Positions 350 through 53,700 of a stretch of 64,000 nt of DNA are shown piece after piece. A model generated the notes under the pieces. The model did not search any database and was not told the origin of the DNA. It saw only the letters and a program-made list of their open reading frames with translations. The DNA is taken from contig OY987244.1 of assembly GCA_963920765.1 (NCBI GenBank), positions 1,614,501 to 1,678,500 on the forward strand, read 5' to 3'. Source of the DNA: Ulota crispa. Lineage: Eukaryota > Streptophyta > Bryopsida > Orthotrichales > Orthotrichaceae. Made by a program: the position numbers and the translations under genes. Within the stretch, counting starts at the first letter, position 1, and each line of letters begins with the position of its first letter.

Positions 350-669
350 TAAAATGCTGGATAGAAAAGAGAGTTTTAACTTTTAACCCATGACCTGTCT
401 GTGTAAACAAAGCCACCTAAGCTTATCTGTCCGATCAATGCTACTTCTTTGCCCAGCCAAAGCCAAGTACGGTACGGAGTAGTACTTAACTTACGATAAG
501 CTTAATATGTCCTGAACTCCTGATATGTCTTTACCATTATGCTTTGCTTTCAACTTTACAAAGCTAATCCCAGCTTAGGAAAGTGACTAATGAAGCCAAC
601 ACAAGAACTTTACCCAAATGTAAATAGCTGATAACCAATGTTGGATGTTGGCTTGAAGGACAAAAGAAG

Positions 670-816
670 ATGCACCACTTCCATTGAATGAAAATACAGA
701 TGGTGACGGTAATTGGGATGATATCGACATTTCCTTGGCAATGGGGACTAATTTTGATGATTTGGTGATCCCCGTGAATATCGACCCTAAAGGAGAGTTC
801 AACTTTCCACCACTAG
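670..816 (+). CDS. Acidic modular gene, copy 1, exon A
   Basis: A 147-bp exon (49 codons) that is phase 1 at both ends. The acceptor is AGAAG at 669 and the donor is CTAG|GTTTG at 817. The product is acidic and includes NTDGDGNWDDIDIS and VIPVNIDPKGEFN. The same exon exists at 35754-35897 with the acceptor AG at the aligned base, the same phases and a length differing by exactly one codon. That supports both borders. No known domain was recognised. Earlier exons of this copy would lie left of the window. Confidence 0.55.
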
Positions 817-1652
817 GTTTGTTCCTTCTCTCCTTCACGCTTGGCTGTTGGCACACTAAGATGCTTAGATTGTCAATCAACATGATCTGAGTGAGAAGTT
901 TTATTTAATCAACATGGTGTCACAAAGCCATGATCAGTGTTCAAGGTATTCCTGTAAGTGTCTCTTTGGCTATGTAAGAGAAGATCATAACTAACAGTCT
1001 TTTTCCTCAATATGACCTCCACCTCATCGATCATCCACAAAGTGAAACAAAATACTCTTGAAGGACTCAAATGGCTTAACATAATGTCTGAGATTTGCCC
1101 AAATGTTGCTCAAGTTTCTAGTTGTCCAACTGAAACCAAAGTCTTCGTAACTCAAAAGTCTATCACTGGTGTAGATCCATTTCCAGAAGGCAGAAGGTCG
1201 TCCTGTTCATGGAGAAGCAGCAGTGATAGCACACTGCCATACACGCAAACGTCTAAGCACGAAAATTTTATATTTTCAGAAAGAATTGGAGCAGTGTTAA
1301 GTCATCTCATTCATGTCAATTGCCAAGGTGCTAGATTTCAATCAGATCTACCTTGCATGAACACCCATCCGGCCAAAAAGGGCCGACACTGTAATATTCA
1401 AGCACACAAACTCTTAGAACTAGAATTGGCTTGCAATCCTGTATAGCCCTACCTTCTGAGTTTACAGTATCGTACTTAGAAACTGCCATTTCTTATAAAT
1501 TACGTCTAAACAATGTACAAATATAACCATGATGATGATGACAGTCTCGAACGACAGTTCATTAAAAATTAAAGTATAAATTGTTCGCTGTTGTAATACA
1601 CGGCAGTCATTCAAGGTACTGACAAAACCTGTTACTGTGACAATGAATGCAG

Positions 1653-1880
1653 CCGATCAACATCCAGAAATACAAGCTCCCTTGCAAGACATCGACATCG
1701 ATCCAGTTGATCCAGCGGAAGCTGATTTGGCTATTTTGCTAGTGCAGGGTGAGGTAGTCGGCCTTCTTCAGCAGATTCAAAGGGATGAGGCAAACATAGT
1801 CACACGCCTGCAAATGCTTCCGCCCATCGCTGAAGAGGCTTTGGTTCCTCTGGATTTGGTGGCCGACGTAGCAGTTGGAG
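1653..1880 (+). CDS. Acidic modular gene, copy 1, exon B
   Basis: A 228-bp exon (76 codons), phase 1 to phase 1. The acceptor is AATGCAG|CC and the donor is TTGGAG|GTAAGC. The frame is open across it and reads PLQDIDIDPVDPAEADL, then the shared motif QQIQRDEANIVTR, then EEALVPLDLVADVAVGG. The ending closely resembles that of exon D (SEEVLVPPDMVGGVA), so the exons look like duplicates of one module of about 70-76 residues. It is rich in Asp, Glu, Leu and Pro, with no signal peptide or membrane span. Its copy 2 counterpart carries a frame-shifting deletion. Function unknown. Confidence 0.6.
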
Positions 1881-2223
1881 GTAAGCCCATTTTCAGCCAG
1901 TTTTGACTAAAGTTCAGGCTTCTTTGTCATCTTTTTTAGAATCGTCGACAGGTCTTTAACTACAAGAAGTGCATGAAATACTCCACTCATCCTGTTCGTT
2001 ACTTCTGGACACATTAATCTCTTTTCCCTCACTTCCTTGGCATTGTAGGATAGAACTATCATGTACGATGTTCTCAAAGAAGATAAGTTACTTAATTAAC
2101 TGAAAAATCTGACTATGTATAGAAATAAAAGGATGCAAGGCACTTAAAATGGTCAGTGGTTGCAGTTACTGATGATATCTGTGGTTGTCATTGCAATTGC
2201 AACTCCTCAACACCGCTCATCAG

Positions 2224-2460
2224 TACTACCGGCACCTGAAGTCGATGCGGATGATGATGCCCTAATCTTTGAGATGACCCCAATCGACGCACCAGATCTG
2301 GGGGCAGCCGTCATGGATAATACAACTCTGGGCTTGGCGTTCAGCATTCTTCCTCAAGAGATTGAAAGGCACGAGGCAAACATGGTCGGCCGCCCTAATC
2401 GAGTGCATGAGATCGTCGAAGTTCTTAACGTTCATGACAAACTTTTTCTGGTGAACTTAG
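2224..2460 (+). CDS. Acidic modular gene, copy 1, exon C (unique to this copy)
   Basis: The open reading frame includes PEVDADDDALIFEM, the shared motif QEIERHEANMVGRPN and KLFLVNLG. The donor TTAG|GTCTTC is in phase 1. The acceptor is less clear. The base aligned with the acceptor of the last exon reads GCAA instead of GCAG, but CATCAG|TACTAC at 2223 gives phase 1. In copy 2 the interval matching about 2020-2488 is deleted, so this module is absent there. Borders are inferred; coding character rests on the motif. Confidence 0.4.
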
Positions 2461-2693
2461 GTCTTCAGCTTCTTCAAGCAGCTCTAAACGAGCTTTGCGA
2501 GTCCTTTAAAGGTGGTATTATGTCCTCCTGTGCTTTACAGTATGTAAATTAGGTTACTGACCAACATTCAATGGATTATAGGCACCATGCATGTCCTCAT
2601 TTACAGTTGCTAGATGTGGTTGCTTATTGCGCAAAAGCAGTTTAAAATGTTTTGTACTGATGACAATGTACGAACTCTTGAATATGATTGCAG

Positions 2694-2903
2694 TTTCTCA
2701 GGACCTGTTGATACCCTCGGCAGTGCAGCAGGCCCTGATACCCGCAGTCAATGCTGTTGATTCTACATCCTGGGAAGTTGAATTGGCTGTTTACCAAGGG
2801 CAGGACGAGGCAAACACGGCTAGGCACCCTCAAGTGCCTAGTACGTCTACCTCTGAAGAAGTTTTGGTTCCTCCGGATATGGTGGGCGGCGTTGCAATAG
2901 GAG
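2694..2903 (+). CDS. Acidic modular gene, copy 1, exon D
   Basis: A 210-bp exon (70 codons), phase 1 to phase 1, with acceptor GATTGCAG|TTTCTC and donor ATAGGAG|GTAAGC. It reads VSQDLLIPSAVQQALIPAV, then a degenerate form of the shared motif (GQDEANTARHPQ) and SEEVLVPPDMVGGVAIGG. The copy 2 exon at 37333-37542 has exactly the same length, phase and open frame despite many substitutions, which suggests that coding was kept. The following intron (2904-4490) carries a Stowaway MITE. Confidence 0.6.
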
Positions 2904-3048
2904 GTAAGCCAGCTCGAAGCCTCAAACCAATCTGCCTTAGTAACCAGTGAGAAGTACTAGCACAGAACATATGTGTTGTAAAAGTAACTTCAGGGACGGA
3001 CACTGAATCTTTGAAGGTCAAGTAACAGAGATTGCTAAATGTATTGTA

Positions 3049-3374
3049 CTCCCTCCGTCCTGAAATGATCGTCCTATTACACAAATAGATTAAGCTTGAA
3101 AAGAACCATTTTCAAAAAAAATTGACCTATGAATAGAGTATGATGTCCTTCTATTGTTCTGAAATTTTGAGTTTCAAATTCATTTTCAAAGTGTGGTTTC
3201 AAAATACTTGAAAATTGAGTTTTTGAGGCACTTTTGAAGAGCACCAGTGACCACTCACTTGATGACACAGGATTGGTTAGCATATCCATACTTTTGGACT
3301 ATGTGCAAGTGTCACTAGCTTTCTTCCTCCTTCAACAAGAATATCATTTTGAGATCATTTTGGGACAGAGGGAG
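3049..3374. mobile_element. Stowaway MITE in intron of acidic gene copy 1
   Basis: A 326-bp element with ends CTCCCTCCGTCCTGAAATGA and TCATTTTGGGACAGAGGGAG, flanked by TA on both sides. This is the canonical Stowaway (Tc1/mariner-type) signature. It lies in the intron between exons D and F. Copy 2 lacks it, so it arrived after the duplication. Confidence 0.93.
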
Positions 3375-4490
3375 TATATGAATCGTCTGTATCTTCATTG
3401 AGAGGGAGATTATATCCAGTAATTGGAACGGATGAACACTGAGTGATGGACAAAATTAAAGTGGATGACTGTAGTGAGTGGAGATTCCCACAGTATGATA
3501 CTCGGAGTCGGATCTTGGTGGTTTCGTAGCTCTAGAATACCTGAACAGTTGCATTCGAAACTGAGAAGCAGAGTGGACTAAGCTTATTGCTTACAGGCTT
3601 GTGAACTGTCCTGTCACACATAAGATCGTGAACTGCTTGTAGGGAGAAATGCCTTCCTAGGCTACAAGGGGTCATGTCCCAAGACCAATCATAGGCTGTT
3701 AAATAACAAAAATTGTGAAAAAACAAAACTATAAAAAAATGGAAGGAGTGTATAATGGTAGCGATAAACACCATTCCTTGCGTTACAAAAGTATGAGCGA
3801 CTTGTCAATAGGAGAGTGGTAGAAATTGTAGAATGCTACCCCAATTATACACTTGGGATGTGGAGGTGTCATATACAGGAAAATTATACTACTTTCTCAG
3901 GGTTCATTCCCTTGTGAATCTCACTTTTCCCTCTGAGAATTGACACCTGTAAAAACTTACTAATTACAGTTATTTTGGACACGTGTTACAACTATACATA
4001 CATAGGGAAAAATGAGACTCACCGGGAAGTAACACCGGGAACGCGATATAAGTTTAGTATGATCATACTACGTTTCTGAAAAAATATCATATTCCCATAA
4101 CGACACTACTGTCATTCCTTGGATGCGTTTTTCTTTTGCCTCTTCTTCTTCTTGAGGCTCCTCATCTACAAAAAATTGAACTGACGTCATGGATAGGCTA
4201 GGCTCTTGAATCGGGTTTCATATATCTAGTGATGACCATTCATGCTTGTCGTCACTCTTTAGGATTCAATCTCGAGACTTCAAACTGCATGAAATACTCC
4301 ACTTTTTCAAAGAGTTTGTTCCATCAGTACTTCATCTCTCTGTAATCTGTAGTGTAGGGTAAAATGATTTCGTACAATGTCCCCAGGACAGTTTGCTAGA
4401 TAAACGGTTTCTTGAAAAAACTAATGCACGCAACTGAGTCAAAACACTAGTGCATGTTACTAATGGTGATATCCGTGATGATAATCGCAG

Positions 4491-4954
4491 GTTCTCAACA
4501 TCTCCCGACAATTCTTCAAGCGCCTCAGAGCGTTACAGGTGATGCTCCCGAGCATGATATCTTTCCAGCTTCTGACTCTTCGCCTGTGAGCTTTAGAGCT
4601 GATTCCCGAGAGCCTGAGATCAATGGAGCTGATGCCCTCACGCATGACATCGGTGCAGCTGGGATCGTTGCCATGGACGCACTGGATCTTCCTCAACATT
4701 TTGAAACGATCGGGCCAAATTCAAACTTATTTGAACCCAATGAAGTTGAAGACGACGCTGGTGAGACTTCAGTGCAGCATTTTAATCAGCTGGCCAGCCT
4801 GGCCTCTACTGATCCAGGGCATCCTCGAGTTGCGACAGCCGATCTGAGCCTACCTGCTGGAGATCTCAATTCCCACCTGGAAGTGCAAATGCCTTCTGCT
4901 GTCACAAAGGGAGGCGTCACAGAGGCCGAGGCTACTTTGCCCGAGGAAATATGA
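4491..4954 (+). CDS. Acidic modular gene, copy 1, terminal exon F
   Basis: The terminal exon opens at ATAATCGCAG|GT (phase 1) and ends at TGA, encoding about 153 residues. It is strongly acidic and Ser/Pro-rich (SDSSPVSF, EPEINGADAL, NEVEDDAGETSVQ). It carries a worn copy of the shared motif (DLPQHFETIGPNSN) and ends EAEATLPEEI. Most of it is expected to be disordered. The counterpart at 38289-38926 is about 58 codons longer, through extra ASEH-PEP units near its start. No domain was recognised. Confidence 0.6.
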
Positions 4955-5034
4955 TCTGGGGTGCTTAGTATAATACATGTAAAAAGCTAATTGTAACTTG
5001 GTACTACAACATTCTCGGAAAACTTTTTGAAATA

Positions 5035-7885: not shown

Positions 7886-7970
7886 TGTGGCATGACTTAA
7901 GTGTCCCCAACCTTGAAAAAGAAAAAGAAATGCATTCCAAAAGCACCTATCTTTGCTTGTGATGGATAAA

Positions 7971-8095
7971 GCACACCCTATTGGTTGGGTATGAAGCGCA
8001 CCCTATTGGTTGGGTATGAAGCGCACCTTATTGGTTGGGTATGAAGCGCACCCTATTGGTTGGGTATGAAGCGCACTCTATTGGTTGGTTATGGA
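7971..8095 (+). repeat. 25-bp minisatellite, five units
   Basis: Five exact-length 25-bp units of GCGCACCCTATTGGTTGGG plus TATGAA run from 7971. The first begins GCACACCC and the last is diverged (GCGCACTCTATTGG). Each unit carries ATTGG, an inverted CCAAT box. It lies beside a MITE in a stretch without counterpart in copy 2. Confidence 0.93.
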
Positions 8096-8872: not shown

Positions 8873-10012
8873 GGGAAAATATGAAAATAGGCCTGACAAT
8901 TGGCCATATTTCAAAAATAGTCTTGACCATTCATAAATTTAAAAAATGGGCCTCATCAGGGTCTTGAGTTTTTGCAATTGATTTCCTTCAATTCCCAAAC
9001 TAGTTTATTAAGGAACTTTTGCCATTATTTTCTCTATTACATATTATAAATATTGAAAAATTAGATTTTCAATTGGCTTTTCAACCAATGTTTACAAATT
9101 GCAAACAATTTTTTCTCATTTCAATTGGCTAGCTTTGAACTAGTTGTGGCTTCTTCTTGGACAACCTCATCATATACCAAAAGTAGGCCTTGCCACTAAG
9201 GGTACCAAAATTTTGTGCATGTTTATTTATGGGAATTGATATGAGCACACCTGGGGTTTGATATATGCACACAAAGAAAGGGGTAAAGTTTAGATATTTA
9301 CCATCAACAAGCTGAATTTGGAAATTCCAAATTTAGGTTTGGATTTAGAGATCTTGATTTAGTTTAGAAATACAATGGAGGTTAAAATTGAACTACACCC
9401 AATGGAAAAGCTTAAGTCTTTTTACAAACAAAGGTAAGAGTAAAAATTTGCCCCCTAGCTAAGCTTTCCTATTGGGCCTAATTCAATTGTAACCTCCATT
9501 GTGGTTTTAAAAAGTCTAAACTAAATCAAGGTCTCTAAATCCAAATCTAAATTTGTAATTTCCAAATTTAGCTTGTTGAATTGGTAAATATCTAAACTTT
9601 ACCCCTCTCTTTGTGTGCATATATCAAACCCCGGGTATGCTCATATCAATTCCCATAAATAAACATGCACAAAATTTTGGTACCCTTAGTTTCAAAGCCT
9701 ACTTTTGGTATATGATGAGGTGGTTTAGGAAGAAGCAACAACTAGTTCAAAGCTAGCTGGTTGAAATGAGAAAATACTGTTTGCAATTTGTAAACATTGG
9801 CTGAAAAGTTGATTGAAAATCTAATTTTTCAATATTTATAATATGTAACAAAAAAAATAATGGAAAAGTTCCTTGATAAACTAGTTTCAGAATTGAAGGA
9901 AATCAATTGCAAAAACCCAAGACTCCAATGAGGCCCATTTTTGATATTTCTGAATTGTCAATACTGTTTTTGAAATATGGCCAATTGTCAGGCCTATTTT
10001 TGATGTTTTCCC
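8873..10012. mobile_element. Mutator-like foldback element, 1.14 kb, arms about 545 bp
   Basis: The left end GGGAAAATATGAAAATAGG and right end CCTATTTTTGATGTTTTCCC are the classic plant Mutator-like terminus. Flanks TTTTTTTAT and TTTTTTGTT match at 7 of 9 bases. The inverted repeat runs nearly the full length: about 8873-9416 pairs with about 9459-10012, leaving a loop of some 40 bp. The uninterrupted site is readable in copy 2 near 40165. No transposase was seen, so it is non-autonomous and would give a very long hairpin RNA if transcribed. Confidence 0.9.
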
Positions 10013-33967: not shown

Positions 33968-34007
33968 ATGGCGCGACGAGGGCGAGGGGGTAAGGATGGC
34001 GACGATG
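33968..34007 (+). CDS. Probable first exon (MARRGRGG...), likely acidic gene copy 2
   Basis: An ATG lies in a GC-richer island (33880-34210), unlike the repeat-filled DNA around it. The frame reads MARRGRGGKDGDDG and meets a strong donor GATG|GTAAGATG in phase 1. A second donor, GGGG|GTAAGG at about 33991, is also in phase 1. The downstream exons at 35754, 36758, 37333 and 38289 all take phase-1 introns, so this is the simplest start for that gene. The link is inferred, since 1.7 kb of intron separates it from exon A. Its copy 1 equivalent would lie outside the window. Confidence 0.35.
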
Positions 34008-34009
34008 GT

Positions 34010-35129
34010 AAGATGCAGGTTGTGTACGCCTTCCTCGCCTGGCTCTGTCGCTTTAGCGGCTTAGCGAACCTGTGGCAACCTAATCGAGAGCAGAATGCAC
34101 TCCTATCATCAACCCCGCGAGTTAAGCAAATGTGCTCAAGGTTAGTGATCCATGGATGTCAGTTACCGGGTCAGTTACTAACGCGATCCTTGTTATTGAC
34201 CTACTGATCTCGATCTGGTTTTTTTTCTCTTGTGATCATCCGTTTGCTGTGTATAGTCGGTGCACATGATTTGCTGACATGGTCTTCTCCGGAGTCTACA
34301 GCTCCGCGAGCCCGCCGGATACGAGTCGAAGCGTATGCAAGATGCAACTACTAGCTAGGCACCGATCTACTTCGAAGACTGGAATTTGCGCTCGCATTCT
34401 TCAGGGTTATATGTTCGAAGAACTGCAAATTTGAATGTATTTTGGGAAATTGTTGAACACTGAAAACCTAACTTTGGGAAAGGGTGAACATAACAGCTCA
34501 CGCAGCAGATCTGGAAATAAGTATAATTTTTCAGTGGTTGTCGGATGTACAGCTCAAGTAGGTGGATGTTTTCTGAAATCAGAGTTCCCAATTTAAGAAC
34601 ATCTAGCAAAACTTCTAGACGAAAATAATAATTGCAAGGACAAACCTGAAGACTTGAGTGTTGGATTTGAACATATTTAGTACTAACACTAGTTCTTTCA
34701 GTTAACCCCTAAAGGATGTTGCTGTTTTGTATATGGACTCCCAAGTTGTATACGGATGGGGTATTTGGATAGCACATGAACCCTATTGGAGTTGTAAGTT
34801 TCAAGCCAATTCATAGACATACTACTTGTCAACTAGGATTTTTTGGGAAATTTTTAACATTTGTCATATAGTCATTTCTTTAATTAAGTACTAAATGACT
34901 CTTTTACAAATACAAACAACACTTTTGGTAGGCAACATCCTTTACGGCAAGACTACTTCACAATAAAGTAGGTCCAGTTACCCTACCTCAGATAGTCACG
35001 TGATCACCTCTGTAGTTAAGGTCAACTTCTATTAGAGAATAACTTCTATAAATCAATATCTTGCAAATTGAGTGGTTCTACTATAATGATTTACCACCTA
35101 AATTACTAACAGTGTAAACTATTTTATTT
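34010..35129. other. Gene-free stretch, probably intron of acidic gene copy 2
   Basis: If the first exon at 33968 belongs to the gene at 35754-38926, this is its first intron. It contains a small TTAA element (34706-34949) and otherwise nothing recognised. Confidence 0.35.
34706..34949. mobile_element. TTAA-type element, small and worn
   Basis: TTAA|CCCCTAAAGGATGTTGC at the left faces GGCAACATCCTTTACGG at the right, with a degraded right duplication. Confidence 0.55.
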
Positions 35130-35473: not shown

Positions 35474-35753
35474 TGGAATGCTGGATAGAAGACGGTTGTA
35501 ACGTAGAACCTGTCAGTCTAATGAAGGCATCCTATCTGTCCAATCAATGTCACTTCTTTGTCCAGCCAAAGCCAAGTGGTAGTTGAGTACTTACTATAAG
35601 TCCTGATACGTCCTTCACATTATGCTTTTTTTTCAACTTTACAAAGCTGCCTCTCGCTTAGGAAATTGATTGATTAAAGCCAACACAAGAGCTATACCCA
35701 AATAAAAACAGCTAATAACCAACGTTGGATGTTTGCTTGAAGGCCTATTGGAG

Positions 35754-35897
35754 GTGTACCATTTCCATTTGTCGAATATACTGATGGTGTAGGAAATTGG
35801 TATAATATCGACACTGCCTTGGCAAGGGGGACTGCTCCTGATCATTTGGTGATCCTTGTGAACATCGACCCTGAAGGAAGGTGCAACGTTCCACTAG
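35754..35897 (+). CDS. Acidic modular gene, copy 2, exon A
   Basis: A 144-bp exon (48 codons), phase 1 to phase 1. The acceptor is TTGGAG|GT and the donor is CACTAG|GTTTG. It reads TDGVGNWYNIDTALARG and VILVNIDPEGRCNVP, colinear with exon A of copy 1 (670-816) apart from one codon lost before the donor. It is less acidic than its sister. Frame retention between diverged copies is the main evidence for coding. Confidence 0.5.
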
Positions 35898-36327: not shown

Positions 36328-36757
36328 GTAAGCTGGTAGCAACACACTGCTATACAGGCAAACGTCTAACTGTCTTAGCATGAACATGTTGTGTTTTTAG
36401 AAAGAACTGGAGCAGTGCTAAGTCATCTCATTCATGCCAAGGTGCTAGATTTAACTCAGGTCTCCTTGTATGAATATCCATCCGGCCAAAAAGGGCCACC
36501 ACTGTAATATCCAAGCCCACATCAAACTCTTAGAACTAGAATTGGCCTGCAATCCTGCGTAGTCCTTCTGAGTTTACGATAGGGTAGTTAGAAACTGCCA
36601 CTCCTTGTTGATTATGTCTACACAACGTGCAAATATATCTATGATGATGACAGTCTTGAACATCAGTTCACTGGAAAAGTATAATCTGTTCGCTACTGTA
36701 ATATGCAGCAGTGATTCGAGGTACTGACGGAACCCGTAACTTTGACTGTGAATGCAG

Positions 36758-36975
36758 TCGATCAACTTCCAGAAGTACCAGCTCCCTTGCAGGACATCGA
36801 CGACATCGAGCCAGTTGATCCAGCGGAAGATGATTTGGATCTTTTGCTATTGCTTGGTGAGGTAGTCGGCCTTCCTCGGCAGATTGAAAGGGATGAGGCA
36901 AACATAGTCACACGCCCGCAGGTGCTGAAGAGGATTCGGTTCCTCTGATTTTGGTGCCCGACGTAGCAGATGGAG
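36758..36975 (+). CDS. Acidic modular gene, copy 2, exon B (frame disrupted)
   Basis: Counterpart of exon B in copy 1, with acceptor AATGCAG|TC and donor ATGGAG|GTGAGC. It opens well (PLQDIDDIEPVDPAEDDL, then RQIERDEANIVTRPQ). Relative to copy 1 it has one extra codon early and a 13-base deletion after the motif. Its length becomes 218 bp, and the frame runs into TGA before the conserved ending. Because neighbouring exons are all phase 1, skipping it would keep the frame. Alternatively CCGCAG|GTGCTG inside it could act as a donor, or copy 2 may be decaying. Confidence 0.45.
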
Positions 36976-37332
36976 GTGAGCTACTTTTAGAGAGGATTGA
37001 GTAAAGTTCAAGCTTGTTGTTCTTCTATTTGAGAATCGTCGAGAGATCTTGATTTACAAGAAGTGCATGAAAGACTCCACCAATCCTGTTATTTCCTTCT
37101 GGACAATTGAGCTAGGCGAGTCCTATAAAGGTAGTATTATGTCCTCCTATGGTTTACAGTGTGTAAACTAGGTTGCTGAGCAGATTTTAATATTTAAAGC
37201 ATGTATAGGCACTGTACATGACTGTCCTCAAAACTCAAATACAGTTGCTGGTTTCTTATTGCGCAAATGCAGTCTAAAGCCTTAACTGTTCTGTACTGAT
37301 GACACTGTGTGTGCCCTTGAATGTGATTGCAG

Positions 37333-37542
37333 TTTCTCAAAACTTATTGATACCCCCGGCAGTGCAGCAGACTCTCGAACCCGCAGACAACGCTGATGAT
37401 TCTGCATCCCGGGAAATTGAACCAGCTGTTTTTCAAGTGCAGAACGAGGCAAACACAATCAATCTCCCTCAAATACCTCGTACGTCTACCACTGAAGGGG
37501 CTTTGGTTCCTCTAGATTTGGAGGGCGGCGTTGCAGGTAGAG
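37333..37542 (+). CDS. Acidic modular gene, copy 2, exon D
   Basis: A 210-bp exon with acceptor GATTGCAG|TTTCTC and donor GTAGAG|GTGAGC, phase 1 at both ends. The product includes LLIPPAVQQTLEPADNADD, FQVQNEANTINLPQ and EGALVPLDLEGG. It is identical in length and phase to copy 1 exon D, with no stops, although many residues have changed. Confidence 0.55.
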
Positions 37543-38288: not shown

Positions 38289-38926
38289 GTTCTGAACATC
38301 TCTCGACAGTTCTTCAGGCGCATGAGAGCGCTGCAGATGATGCCCCCGAGGATGATATCGATGCGGTTGATGCCCTCACCTCTGAGATCCCCGCCGGTGA
38401 GGCCTCCGAGCATGGTATCATTCCGGTTGAAGCCCCCGAGCCTGAGGTCTTTGCAGCTTCTGACTCTCCGCCTGTGAGCTTTGGAGGTGATGCTCCCGGC
38501 CCTGAGATCCTCGCAGATGAGGCCTCCGAGCATGCTCTCATTCCGGTTGATGCCACCGAGCCTGCGATCACTGGAACTGATGCCCTCGAGCATGACTTCG
38601 GTGCAGCAGGGAACAGTGAAATTGCCGCACTGGATCATCCGCAACAGATTGAAAGGGACGAGGGAAACACGAACTCACTGGAACTCAATAGAGTTGAAGA
38701 CGAAGCTCGTGAACCTTCCGTGCAACGAATTATTGAGCTGACCTCTGGTGATGGTGATCCAGGGCATCCTCGAGTTGCGACACCCAGCCTGAGCGTACCT
38801 GCTCGAGATCTCAATTCCCACCTGGAAGAGCAGATGCCTTCTGATATAATCACCAAGGAAAGCATTACAGAGGCGGAGGCTAAATTGCTCGAGGATGTTA
38901 ATTACTTGGAGGGAGAGCCAGTCTGA
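38289..38926 (+). CDS. Acidic modular gene, copy 2, terminal exon F (expanded)
   Basis: It opens at ATAATCGCAG|GT (phase 1) and ends at TGA, encoding about 211 residues. The N-terminal half is a low-complexity array of Asp/Glu/Pro/Ala units, with EASEHGIIPVEAPEPE and EASEHALIPVDATEPA exactly 120 bp apart. It then carries the shared motif QQIERDEGNTNSLELN, followed by VEDEAREPSVQ and LEEQMPSDIITKESITEAE. Copy 1 has about 58 fewer codons here, so the unit count changed after duplication. It is likely an unfolded acidic tail. The opposite strand is also open in part, a by-product of the repeated codons. Confidence 0.6.
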
Positions 38927-50994: not shown

Positions 50995-52749
50995 TTAGTC
51001 CCAATACTTAATGAGACCATCCCAGCCACAGGTGGCCACTTTCGATTGCTCCAAGGGATGCCATTCTGCTCCTATACATACACTATCATGACACTTAAGA
51101 GTGCGAAACACTTTACAGGTTTTCCAGTCCCAAAACCAGCAGCGACCTTCACCATCTCCGGACATTATGAACCGCCCATCTGGGGAGAAGTTCACTTGGC
51201 ATGCGTACCCAGCGGCAATGTGCCCAGCGAAACGCTTCTTCTTATTTAACCTGAACCGCTCCCGCGTACTGTAAATCAGAATCTGATTGTCTAAACTTTG
51301 AGCAGCAAACCAGTTGGAATTCGGGTGGACGGTGATAGCAGGCATGGAGTGCATGTGCGGCTCGCTAATATACTTAATCACCACAGGTATGCCAAACTCC
51401 CACACACGCAATGACTTATCATCACTGGATGTGACAAATCTCCGATTATCATCCACAAAGGTAATTGTGTTCACAGCACCCAAGTGCTGATCATACTCTT
51501 GGTTAATCTCTCCGGTGTTCATGTCCCACTGCACAATTTTCTTGTCACTCATCCCCGCCAGCAGCACGTTCTGCTTATCCTCATCTGGATTGAACTTCAC
51601 CACATAAGGAATCTTTCCTGTCGTGAAAGTCGACACCACTTGCCCAGTCTCGGTATCCCAAAGCTTGATCTTTCTATCATACGAAGCGGTCAAAAACTTG
51701 GACCCATCGTTATTGAAAGTAATGTCCCGAACTGCTTTCGAATGTCCCATGTATGTGCGCATGCATTTCCCACTACCATGAACATCCCATATCTTCACCT
51801 TCGTGTCCATACTAGCGGAAAGAAGAAGATGACCATACTTAGGAAAAAACCTAATTGCAGAAACACCCTTTGTGTGTCCACTCCATGTGTGCACCCATCG
51901 CTTCGGAATGTAGCAATGCTCATTAGTAGCCTTAACATCCTTCGGAGGACTAATCCAAGATCGACCTTGGTAATCCACCTCCTCCTTCCCATGGAATGTA
52001 CTCTTATCATCAAACTCCACCTTCTCGCCTTTCTCCTTTTGACTCTTCTTCTCCGCATGAAGCTCGGCGTGCGCCATCTGCTCCTCCGTCAGCTCGCCCT
52101 GCAAACCCTCCTTCTTTCCAGCCCACGGCGACTTTGAGTTCTTAAGCAGCCATTCCTCCGAAGCAGGATTCTCAACATTCTCCTCGTCCACGTCCACGTC
52201 CACGTCCCCGTCCCTGGGCCTCTTCTTGCGCTGCTTTCGATGCTCGTGCTGCGATAAATTGTACACCGAGGCTCCATCCGTGGCTTCAATGGCGCTAAAA
52301 TCGCCAACAAGATTACTCCCCGTCGTAGCGCTGGGATCCGCCGCGAATCCATATGCATAGAACGTATTGTACTGCTCATCGAACATGAAAGGCGCGATGG
52401 ACGCGTCTTCTACAAACCCTATTTTGTGATTGCGAAGGCCCTGCGCTATCCCGTCCTTCGCATACGGGTGCGCCGGGCCTGCCACTGGTGCCCATAGCTG
52501 CTCGGCCGTGGGGTTGTAGCTCACCTTCCGCTGGGAAGGATCCAAGGGTTTGCGAGCATCCGCAGAAGTCACGCCTCCGAGCACGAGCATGGAATCGCTT
52601 ACCTCCGGTGCGGCTGAGCGCCGGGGCTCCAGAAGCCGGATTGGCGATGAGTCGGGCGACGATGAGCCGCTGGTGGTGACCTCGCCTTCTGCTTGCATGT
52701 GCGAGGACGGATCCTCCACCCCGTCGCTGTATTGCGCCAGGAGATCCAT
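50995..52749 (-). CDS. PRP17: Pre-mRNA-processing factor 17 (PRP17/CDC40), WD40 splicing factor
   Basis: A 584-residue protein in one uninterrupted exon, the usual length for this family (about 570-580). PRP17/CDC40 is a nuclear spliceosome protein that acts around the second catalytic step of splicing. The N-terminal half carries the family opening [10 protein letters not shown], a basic patch RKQRKKRPR (residues 171-179), an acidic run [10 protein letters not shown] (181-190) and the family motif DYQGRSW (259-265). About seven WD40 repeats fill residues 290-584, with diagnostic strings [69 protein letters not shown] and the C-terminal [12 protein letters not shown] place the start at 52749 because family members begin MDLL. 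The frame stays open 67 codons further upstream to 52950, but that stretch is Cys/Arg-rich and unlike the family. No frameshift or missing blade was seen. The gene stands alone among repeats, and no paralogue remains at the matching place in the other duplicated block. Confidence 0.97.
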
Positions 52750-53700
52750 GGCGCGCTTGATTCTAAACCCTCCCCGCCCGCGCTTCTTCGTATTCCCTAC
52801 GACGGATGGAATAGAAACGGAGGCTCTCAGATGAATTGAAACCAACACTACGCCATGTACGCAATCCAGCCGAGCACAACGAGCACAACGAGCACACTCG
52901 CGACACCGACAGAAAAGTGGAGCTATGGAAACGCCGGGACGAAAGCCCAAAACCCTAAATCCCTGTAACCCCTGTTAGAGGTTCACGAAGGACGATACCA
53001 GTATTAGTATAGCATGAAAATACCGTGGCAAACTCTCTTATTGCACCAATTTCGAAAGACCAATTTCCGCGGATGTATAGAGGTCAGGCCCGGTTCAGAC
53101 TAGCGTCCGGCCGAAAATTTCTGAAACGTGATTGGTTGAAATTTGGCTTTTCTCCGTTGTTAGGTTCAGGTTGCGAGTTTGTTTGGTACTTTTACATCCA
53201 TTTTCACCACCGTGTGGACCACCCTATATAGATACGTTGGCGGCCAAGATAGTGAAGATTTGGGGCCTGCTCTAAGGGTGGTATCAAACTTGTCCGACAG
53301 AGGTACACTCTTGAATGACACGCAATTACATGGAAAAGTTTCTATTGGGCAAAACACCAGATGGGATGCCGATTTTTGTGTCTCGGTCGATTGCTAGTCT
53401 AAACCGGGCATGAGAATATTGTGTGACAGCACTTTCAGTTTCTTATTTTAGAAAGTGTTGAAATGGTGAAAATAAATTATTGTGAAGCCATATGTTTGCA
53501 CATCAATACTTTAAATTAGGCTATTTGTTTGGATGTTTGTTTGTTTGTCACATTAAGATCTTCCAAACTGTATGTCCCCTGTCACATGCTTGATAATACC
53601 ATAAAGCTCTTGCCAAGGAGGGTTGCACAAGCTTGGTTTTGTGACATTTGGACATACGGTGAGAAAATTATTGAATTTCAATACAAAATTATGGGTTAAA
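52750..53700. promoter_or_regulatory. Probable PRP17 5' UTR/promoter region
   Basis: This is gene-free, repeat-poor DNA just upstream of the PRP17 start. It is clearly less AT-rich than the surroundings up to about 53400. No mobile-element ends were found, in contrast to nearly every neighbouring kilobase, which fits a retained promoter and leader. The in-frame open extension at 52750-52950 on the minus strand is more likely leader than protein. No TATA box or transcription start can be fixed from the sequence alone. Confidence 0.4.

Follow-up and report, generated by a model that had tools for sequence, protein, structure and literature searches.

A putative lineage-restricted gene pair in the moss Ulota crispa, grown from duplicated exons and apparently selected for reading frame and charge rather than sequence

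What is being preserved in a series of open exons that resemble one another and encode a protein without a recognised domain? The question is raised by a stretch of 64,000 nucleotides of the Ulota crispa genome (assembly GCA_963920765.1, contig OY987244.1, positions 1,614,501 to 1,678,500; hereafter the window), in which the first-pass annotation had proposed, at 670-4954, an undescribed acidic protein built from phase-1 exon modules sharing an RDEAN motif. The locus is present in two neighbouring copies, copy 1 at the start of the window and copy 2 at 33.97-38.93 kb. Their comparison leads us to favour, with some reserve, a lineage-restricted pair of coding genes, the acidic and probably disordered products of which are selected for frame and charge and not for sequence.

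The model of copy 1 has six exons, all on the plus strand. Its first exon, with the ATG, is situated about 3.3 kb 5' of the window (contig positions 1611226-1611425, 200 bp; translation MARQGQGDEN...QPCS, donor CAAG|GTAATT), within 20 kb of upstream sequence that was also analysed, and its splice to exon A is in phase 2. For exon A itself the range 659-816 (158 bp, entered in phase 2 and left in phase 1) is more probable than the alternative 670-816 (147 bp, phase 1), because the upstream first exon ends in phase 2 and the acceptor GCTTGAAG|G is common to both copies (659 and 35743). It is followed by three modules of phase 1 at both ends: exon B (1653-1880, 228 bp) with QQIQRDEAN and the ending EEALVPLDLVADVAVGG, exon C (2224-2511, 288 bp) with QEIERHEAN and a predicted C-terminal helix, and exon D (2694-2903, 210 bp) with DEAN and the ending EEVLVPPDMVGGVAIGG. 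The acidic terminal exon F (4491-4954, 464 bp), in which the motif is degenerate, is entered in phase 1 and runs to a TGA. Exons B, C, D and F have AG/GT borders, and their phase-1 joins give a single open frame; the joined model has 515 amino acids and an isoelectric point (pI) of 4.07. The earlier statement that all exons begin and end in phase 1 therefore holds for B, C and D and for the entry into F, and fails for exon A, which is probably phase 2-1 and stands outside the module set.

Copy 2, also on the plus strand, has the same start and matching donors and acceptors for every exon present in both copies. It retains the first exon (33968-34140; 173 bp against 200 bp in copy 1; MARRGRGG...QMCS, phase 2 out, donor CAAG|GTTAGTG), exon A (35743-35897; 155 against 158 bp), exon D (37333-37542; 210 bp in both) and the terminal exon F (38289-38926; 638 against 464 bp). 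The latter contains diverged in-frame tandem repeats of 30 and 60 bp (10 and 20 residues; 4.0 copies of 60 bp with 62% matches) and ends at a TGA; the stop codons lie at differing places in the two copies, copy 2 extending a few residues further. Exon B (36758-36975, 218 bp) is frameshifted (+3, -13), reaches a stop if included, and is probably skipped. Of exon C only a remnant is left, at 37109-37132, ahead of which copy 2 lacks about 480 bp; the simpler view is that copy 2 suffered a deletion, because the last 22 nt of C and its donor GT remain there. The model without B and C has 391 amino acids and a pI of 4.20, so that the acidic character foreseen for the protein is borne out in both copies. 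The conservation of exon length, phase and open frame between the copies, as originally described, applies to the first exon, A, D and F; it does not extend to the frameshifted B and the deleted C of copy 2.

Growth of the gene by exon duplication, as first suggested from the shared motif, is well supported by the nucleotide comparisons: the modules are homologous beyond chance. In the self-comparison of copy 1, B matches D over 58 nt (1830-1887 versus 2853-2910; 84%, E 7.9e-13) and C over 39 nt (1763-1801 versus 2349-2387; 82%, E 3e-5), and even the introns preceding C and F match each other (21 nt, 95%, E 0.001). Copy 2 shows matches of B with D (57 nt, 77%, E 4e-7) and with F (25 nt, 92%, E 6.5e-5), and across the copies exon C of copy 1 matches both F (35 nt, 86%, E 2.4e-5) and B (47 nt, 81%, E 2e-6) of copy 2. 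At the protein level, Smith-Waterman scores of 32 cross-module pairs were compared with 1000 shuffles, and five pairs were equalled by 10 shuffles or fewer: copy-1 B with copy-1 C and D, and copy-1 C with copy-2 B (0 each), copy-1 B with copy-2 D (3), and copy-1 C with copy-2 F (10). Exons C and D are connected via B alone (945 of 1000 shuffles for the C-D pair of copy 1), copy-1 F is chance-like versus all other modules (247 to 966 of 1000), and exon A is related to no module at this threshold, the nearest pair being copy-1 A with the intact part of copy-2 B (18 of 1000). The RDEAN motif had been ascribed to B, C, D and F alike. It is complete in B and C, present only as DEAN or NEAN in D, and in F it ranges from the degenerate QHFETIGPN of copy 1 to the nearly full QQIERDEGN of copy 2.

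The reading frame was then compared to the surrounding introns, which are 83% identical between the copies and carry 92 indels shorter than 60 nt per 2867 aligned bases (about one per 31 bp, or 0.032 per base), 22 of the 92 being multiples of three. In exons A, B, D and F, a codon alignment has 7 indels in 1026 bases versus 33 expected (P 5e-8), bearing in mind that such an alignment conceals frame-breaking gaps; a free nucleotide alignment has 14, or 17 including the end of F, about half of the expected number. In-frame stops are absent from A, D, F and the intact part of B, versus 5.18 expected starting from copy 1 (P 0.007) and 5.51 starting from copy 2 (P 0.002). Neutral simulations were run with intron substitutions and indel rates of 0.007 and 0.0136 per base, that is, 4.6 and 2.4 times below the intron rate. 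Even at these reduced rates, A, D and F jointly remained intact with a chance of 2.7e-4 and 2.6e-5 from copy 1, and 9.2e-5 and 2.6e-6 from copy 2; with indels at the intron rate, F was intact in 0 of 3000 simulated runs. The open frame of A, D and F is held beyond neutral expectation, and B and C are lost in copy 2. Moreover, the three codon positions of copy 1 (A-F) have a guanine-cytosine (GC) content of 0.68/0.38/0.44 and those of copy 2 (A, D and F) one of 0.69/0.44/0.45, with 0.41/0.40/0.35 in the A-B intron. When this periodicity contrast was gauged against 2000 noncoding windows of equal length, none of them equalled the contrast of C or, in either copy, that of F and of the intact part of B, and 63 and 19 equalled that of the two copies of D.

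Net charge was compared next. The aligned residues of A, D, F and the intact part of B number 324; although 38% of them differ, the two copies have net charges of -49 and -48. Neutral simulation gave -22 to -29 (standard deviation (SD) about 6), with the observed values at z -3.0 to -4.1 in all six simulations (three substitution matrices, one intron-derived and two exon-derived, each in both directions). In these simulations first-position GC was held (z 1.6 to 4.0), and third-position GC was as simulated (z -1.4 to 0.7). In the first charge run, hydropathy and the cysteine plus tryptophan content lay less than 2 SD from drift; acids were more numerous than under drift in one direction (z 3.9; 1.4 in the other), and bases were fewer in the other direction (z -3.9; -0.7 in the opposite one). 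Net charge is preserved against drift, which points to selection on bulk acidity. According to PMC6634968, disordered regions, including those of Ste50, are under stabilising selection on bulk features such as net charge, and the present case is alike in that the sequence diverges whereas bulk charge or acidic content departs from neutral simulation in the same kind of test. That study deals with many yeast orthologues, some with known function (PMC6634968). The locus described here, in contrast, offers a single paralogue pair, and its charge is borne by duplicated exon modules.

AlphaFold modelled exon F of copy 2 (6-row alignment) with a mean predicted local distance difference test score (pLDDT) of 52 and a single weak C-terminal helix, and exon C (4-row alignment) with 64 of 95 residues below pLDDT 50. 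The latter has a predicted helix at residues 69-94 (block mean pLDDT 81-91 over residues 71-95), and its RDEAN-like stretch falls in a low-confidence predicted helix. In both copies, the first exon encodes a hydrophobic stretch of 13 residues (FWDFVFALLYSLL and VVYAFLAWLCRFS), the flanking residues of which hardly align. Modules F and C are mostly below pLDDT 60, and the charge-hydropathy rule leaves the whole proteins outside the disordered class, so that it is likely, not certain, that the proteins are mostly disordered.

Purifying selection on amino-acid identity between the copies is not visible, because the ratio of nonsynonymous to synonymous divergence (dN/dS, omega) is about 1 or above and the exons have diverged as much as the introns. 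Over 381 codons, NG86 gave dS 0.290, dN 0.282 and a ratio of 0.97 (bootstrap 0.73-1.32), or 1.07 (0.78-1.54) without the first exon. The maximum-likelihood (ML) omega, estimated with our own GY94-type script, came to 1.00 when the first exon was included; A, B, D and F gave 1.51 (twice the log-likelihood difference, 2 delta lnL, against 1 = 4.49), and the single exons gave 1.50 for A, 6.85 for B, 1.23 for D and 1.47 for F. Restricting A, B, D and F to nucleotide-consistent codons gave 1.63 with F3x4 and 1.47 with uniform codon frequencies (2 delta lnL 5.39 and 3.41), and the same restriction for A, D and F gave 1.48 and 1.37 (3.15 and 2.10), D alone being about 1. An omega of 0.5 was rejected in the pooled sets (2 delta lnL 23.8-35.1). 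The first-pass annotation had inferred selection from the exon length, phase and open frame shared by two diverged copies and had named a dN/dS near 1 as evidence against its gene. This is the value now found (NG86 0.97; ML 1.00, or 1.4-1.6 if the first exon is left out), and the inference fails for residue identity; it survives for the frame and bulk acidity. We do not take the ratio as refuting a coding gene, because the frames are retained and both codon-position composition and net charge are preserved. Estimates above 1 might also mean that the gene is under diversifying (positive) selection, like reproductive or host-conflict proteins, with residues driven to change and frame and acidity staying, and the third codon positions are indeed the least different (0.164 versus 0.222 and 0.207). 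The excess is, however, marginal. It depends on the codon-frequency model and on exon B, which has the extreme omega and is broken in copy 2; it shrinks when A, D and F are taken alone, vanishes once the poorly aligned first exon is included, and comes from one paralogue pair. We regard diversifying selection as quite improbable.

Several observations weigh against a coding pair under selection, and part of them are what would be left by a decaying pseudogene pair, or by a former coding gene that is now only spliced into a long non-coding RNA, the frames being remnants and the exons drifting like introns. Exon and intron divergence are equal (K80 0.193 for A, B, D and F versus 0.191 for introns outside -115 to 658 and 0.190 within it), dN/dS is about 1 or higher across methods (NG86 0.97; ML 1.00 to 1.63), and copy 2 has lost two of the six exons, namely the frame of B and exon C. 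Synonymous codon preference is unusual as well, being unlike that of 4925 PPR codons plus a WD40 gene of the same genome, with a score for copy 1 A-F of -0.014 per codon in frame, below that of frame 2 (0.138); such codon use argues against a highly expressed ordinary gene. Periodicity is weak in exon A (equalled in 180 and 102 of the 2000 windows) and non-significant in the first exon (180 and 633), which in addition is hard to align (20 of 57 residues; 14 gaps at the nucleotide level, mostly non-multiples of three). Open runs common to both copies overrun the splice sites, and one of 131 nt is inside the A-B intron; among the minus-strand runs, the longest shared one (141 nt) is opposite exon F and another of 110 nt falls in the A-B intron. 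The exons were chosen for openness, so the P values are optimistic, and correcting for the 20 choices of three among six exons raises the weakest frame-retention value to about 0.005. The charge test is based on two sequences, and by the charge-hydropathy rule both copies count as folded, copy 2 by a narrow margin. Against decay or a purely non-coding role, on the other hand, the first exon, A, D and F are in net frame in both copies despite the 83% identity and the frequent intron indels, stops number zero versus more than five expected, and net charge is retained against drift. Decay or loss of coding appears rather unlikely to us, and a lineage-restricted coding pair selected for frame and charge is still the reading we prefer. 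A conventional dN/dS test would dismiss the locus as neutral, and it is the frame and charge tests that disagree.

In the preferred coding interpretation, a single local duplication would have produced the two neighbouring gene copies. If splicing and translation proceed as modelled, each copy would yield an acidic chain composed of a variable N-terminal part with the hydrophobic stretch, exon A, and then modules that presumably descend from duplication of one phase-1 exon. The phase-1 symmetry would allow modules to be gained, deleted or skipped with the remaining frame unbroken, so that copy 1 carries B, C, D and F, and copy 2, its modules being lost harmlessly, does without C and probably bypasses the frameshifted B. 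The product might be a flexible chain, tethered and negatively charged, in which the number of modules sets length and charge, these two properties mattering more than sequence; binding of a basic partner or spacing of surfaces apart are examples of what it could do. That the protein works as a tethered acidic chain is a tentative proposal, the cellular role being its weakest step. More speculative still, and with chances that we put about as low as those of decay, is the possibility that selection sees only the frame and the total negative charge. Residues would then be replaced at the neutral rate or faster (omega 1.4-1.6), and phase-1 exons would be gained, deleted or skipped to adjust the number of modules at constant charge. 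The locus would in that case be a natural gene for a sequence-free polyelectrolyte, with conflict perhaps as the driving force.

Symmetric (1-1) exon duplication and shuffling is a general principle, the classic cases of which are folded extracellular animal domains. The locus resembles them in that phase-1-bounded modules appear to have been duplicated and lost without frame damage elsewhere, and differs in that the sole confidently predicted fold is the helix in exon C. Lineage-restricted, or orphan, genes are also a known class in plants, and the pair would fit it by its likely disorder, fast change and few copies, and by having no relative found in its own genome apart from the two copies or, with module F of copy 2 as query, in prokaryote and viral collections. 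If transcripts confirm the models, the pair would be a natural experiment on how a multi-exon gene grows from one duplicated phase-1 exon, and a test case for whether selection can act on a protein through its bulk charge and nothing else.

The searches behind the putative restriction to this lineage covered the species' own genome (274.8 Mb in 157 contigs) and prokaryote and viral collections. In the genome, a search with the draft protein of copy 1, for which 11 of 11 candidates were scored, gave 10 matches at E<=0.01, and one with the copy 2 protein, for which 9 of 9 were scored, gave 10 at E up to 10; all of them lie at the two loci. A transposon or multicopy family was ruled out, since 10 of 10 protein matches in each search fall on these loci. 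Pfam, NCBIfam and PDB sequences contained no match at E up to 1, in keeping with the initial remark that no domain could be recognised, and PHROGs contained none up to E 0.1 with six modules queried; a known domain origin was discarded on these grounds. A viral or prokaryote origin was likewise rejected, since with module F of copy 2 as the only query there were 13 viral and 314 prokaryote pattern matches, all of which went unconfirmed.

A DNA search with 660-5000, in which the best 40 of 620 candidates were scored, was dominated by a mobile element: 38 of the 45 matches listed hit the stretch 3047-3376. This is a miniature inverted-repeat transposable element (MITE), which we take to be Stowaway-like, with 24-nt inverted ends beginning TACTCCCTCCGTCC. 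It occupies the D-F intron of copy 1 only, is absent from copy 2 and is not part of the gene; at least 38 further genomic copies have 85-88% identity.

Within the A-B intron, two candidate exons were considered and set aside: 1096-1227, open in both copies, which by eye is phase 2-2 and misfits its phase-1 neighbours, and the 30-codon stretch 1351-1441, which has an omega of 0.14 and comes from a list of 45 segments, 20 on the plus strand and 25 on the minus strand. This stretch (pS 0.35, pN 0.05) overlaps a small ATG-to-TAG frame found in both copies, at 1357-1446 (MNTHPAKKGRHCNIQAHKLLELELACNPV) and 36470-36562 (MNIHPAKKGHHCNIQAHIKLLELELACNPA, read by eye in copy 2). It is possibly a conserved small open reading frame, an intronic element, or chance among the 45 segments listed.

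Elsewhere in the window, which contained no Rfam match at gathering score, the interval between the gene copies holds an inverted repeat (9018-9303 and 9582-9867; arms of 286 nt, 92% complementary and 278 nt apart), and five 25-bp copies form a tandem repeat at 7969-8093 (95% matches). In the genome at large, a LEAFY DNA-binding piece matches PDB chain 4bhk_A, a protein of the moss Physcomitrella, at E 9e-73 and the other four LEAFY chains found at E 7e-51 or weaker, in keeping with a moss; a D residue marks the moss type of LEAFY. The SAM_LFY family gave six genomic matches above cut-off (C4, C1, C3, C10, C5 and C2); mosses have one or two LEAFY genes, and the weaker matches may be other SAM-domain genes. 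On the minus strand, 50995-52974 is an intronless open stretch of 659 codons with WD40 repeats, presumably resembling the splicing factor PRP17/CDC40, and may be an intronless gene or a retrogene.

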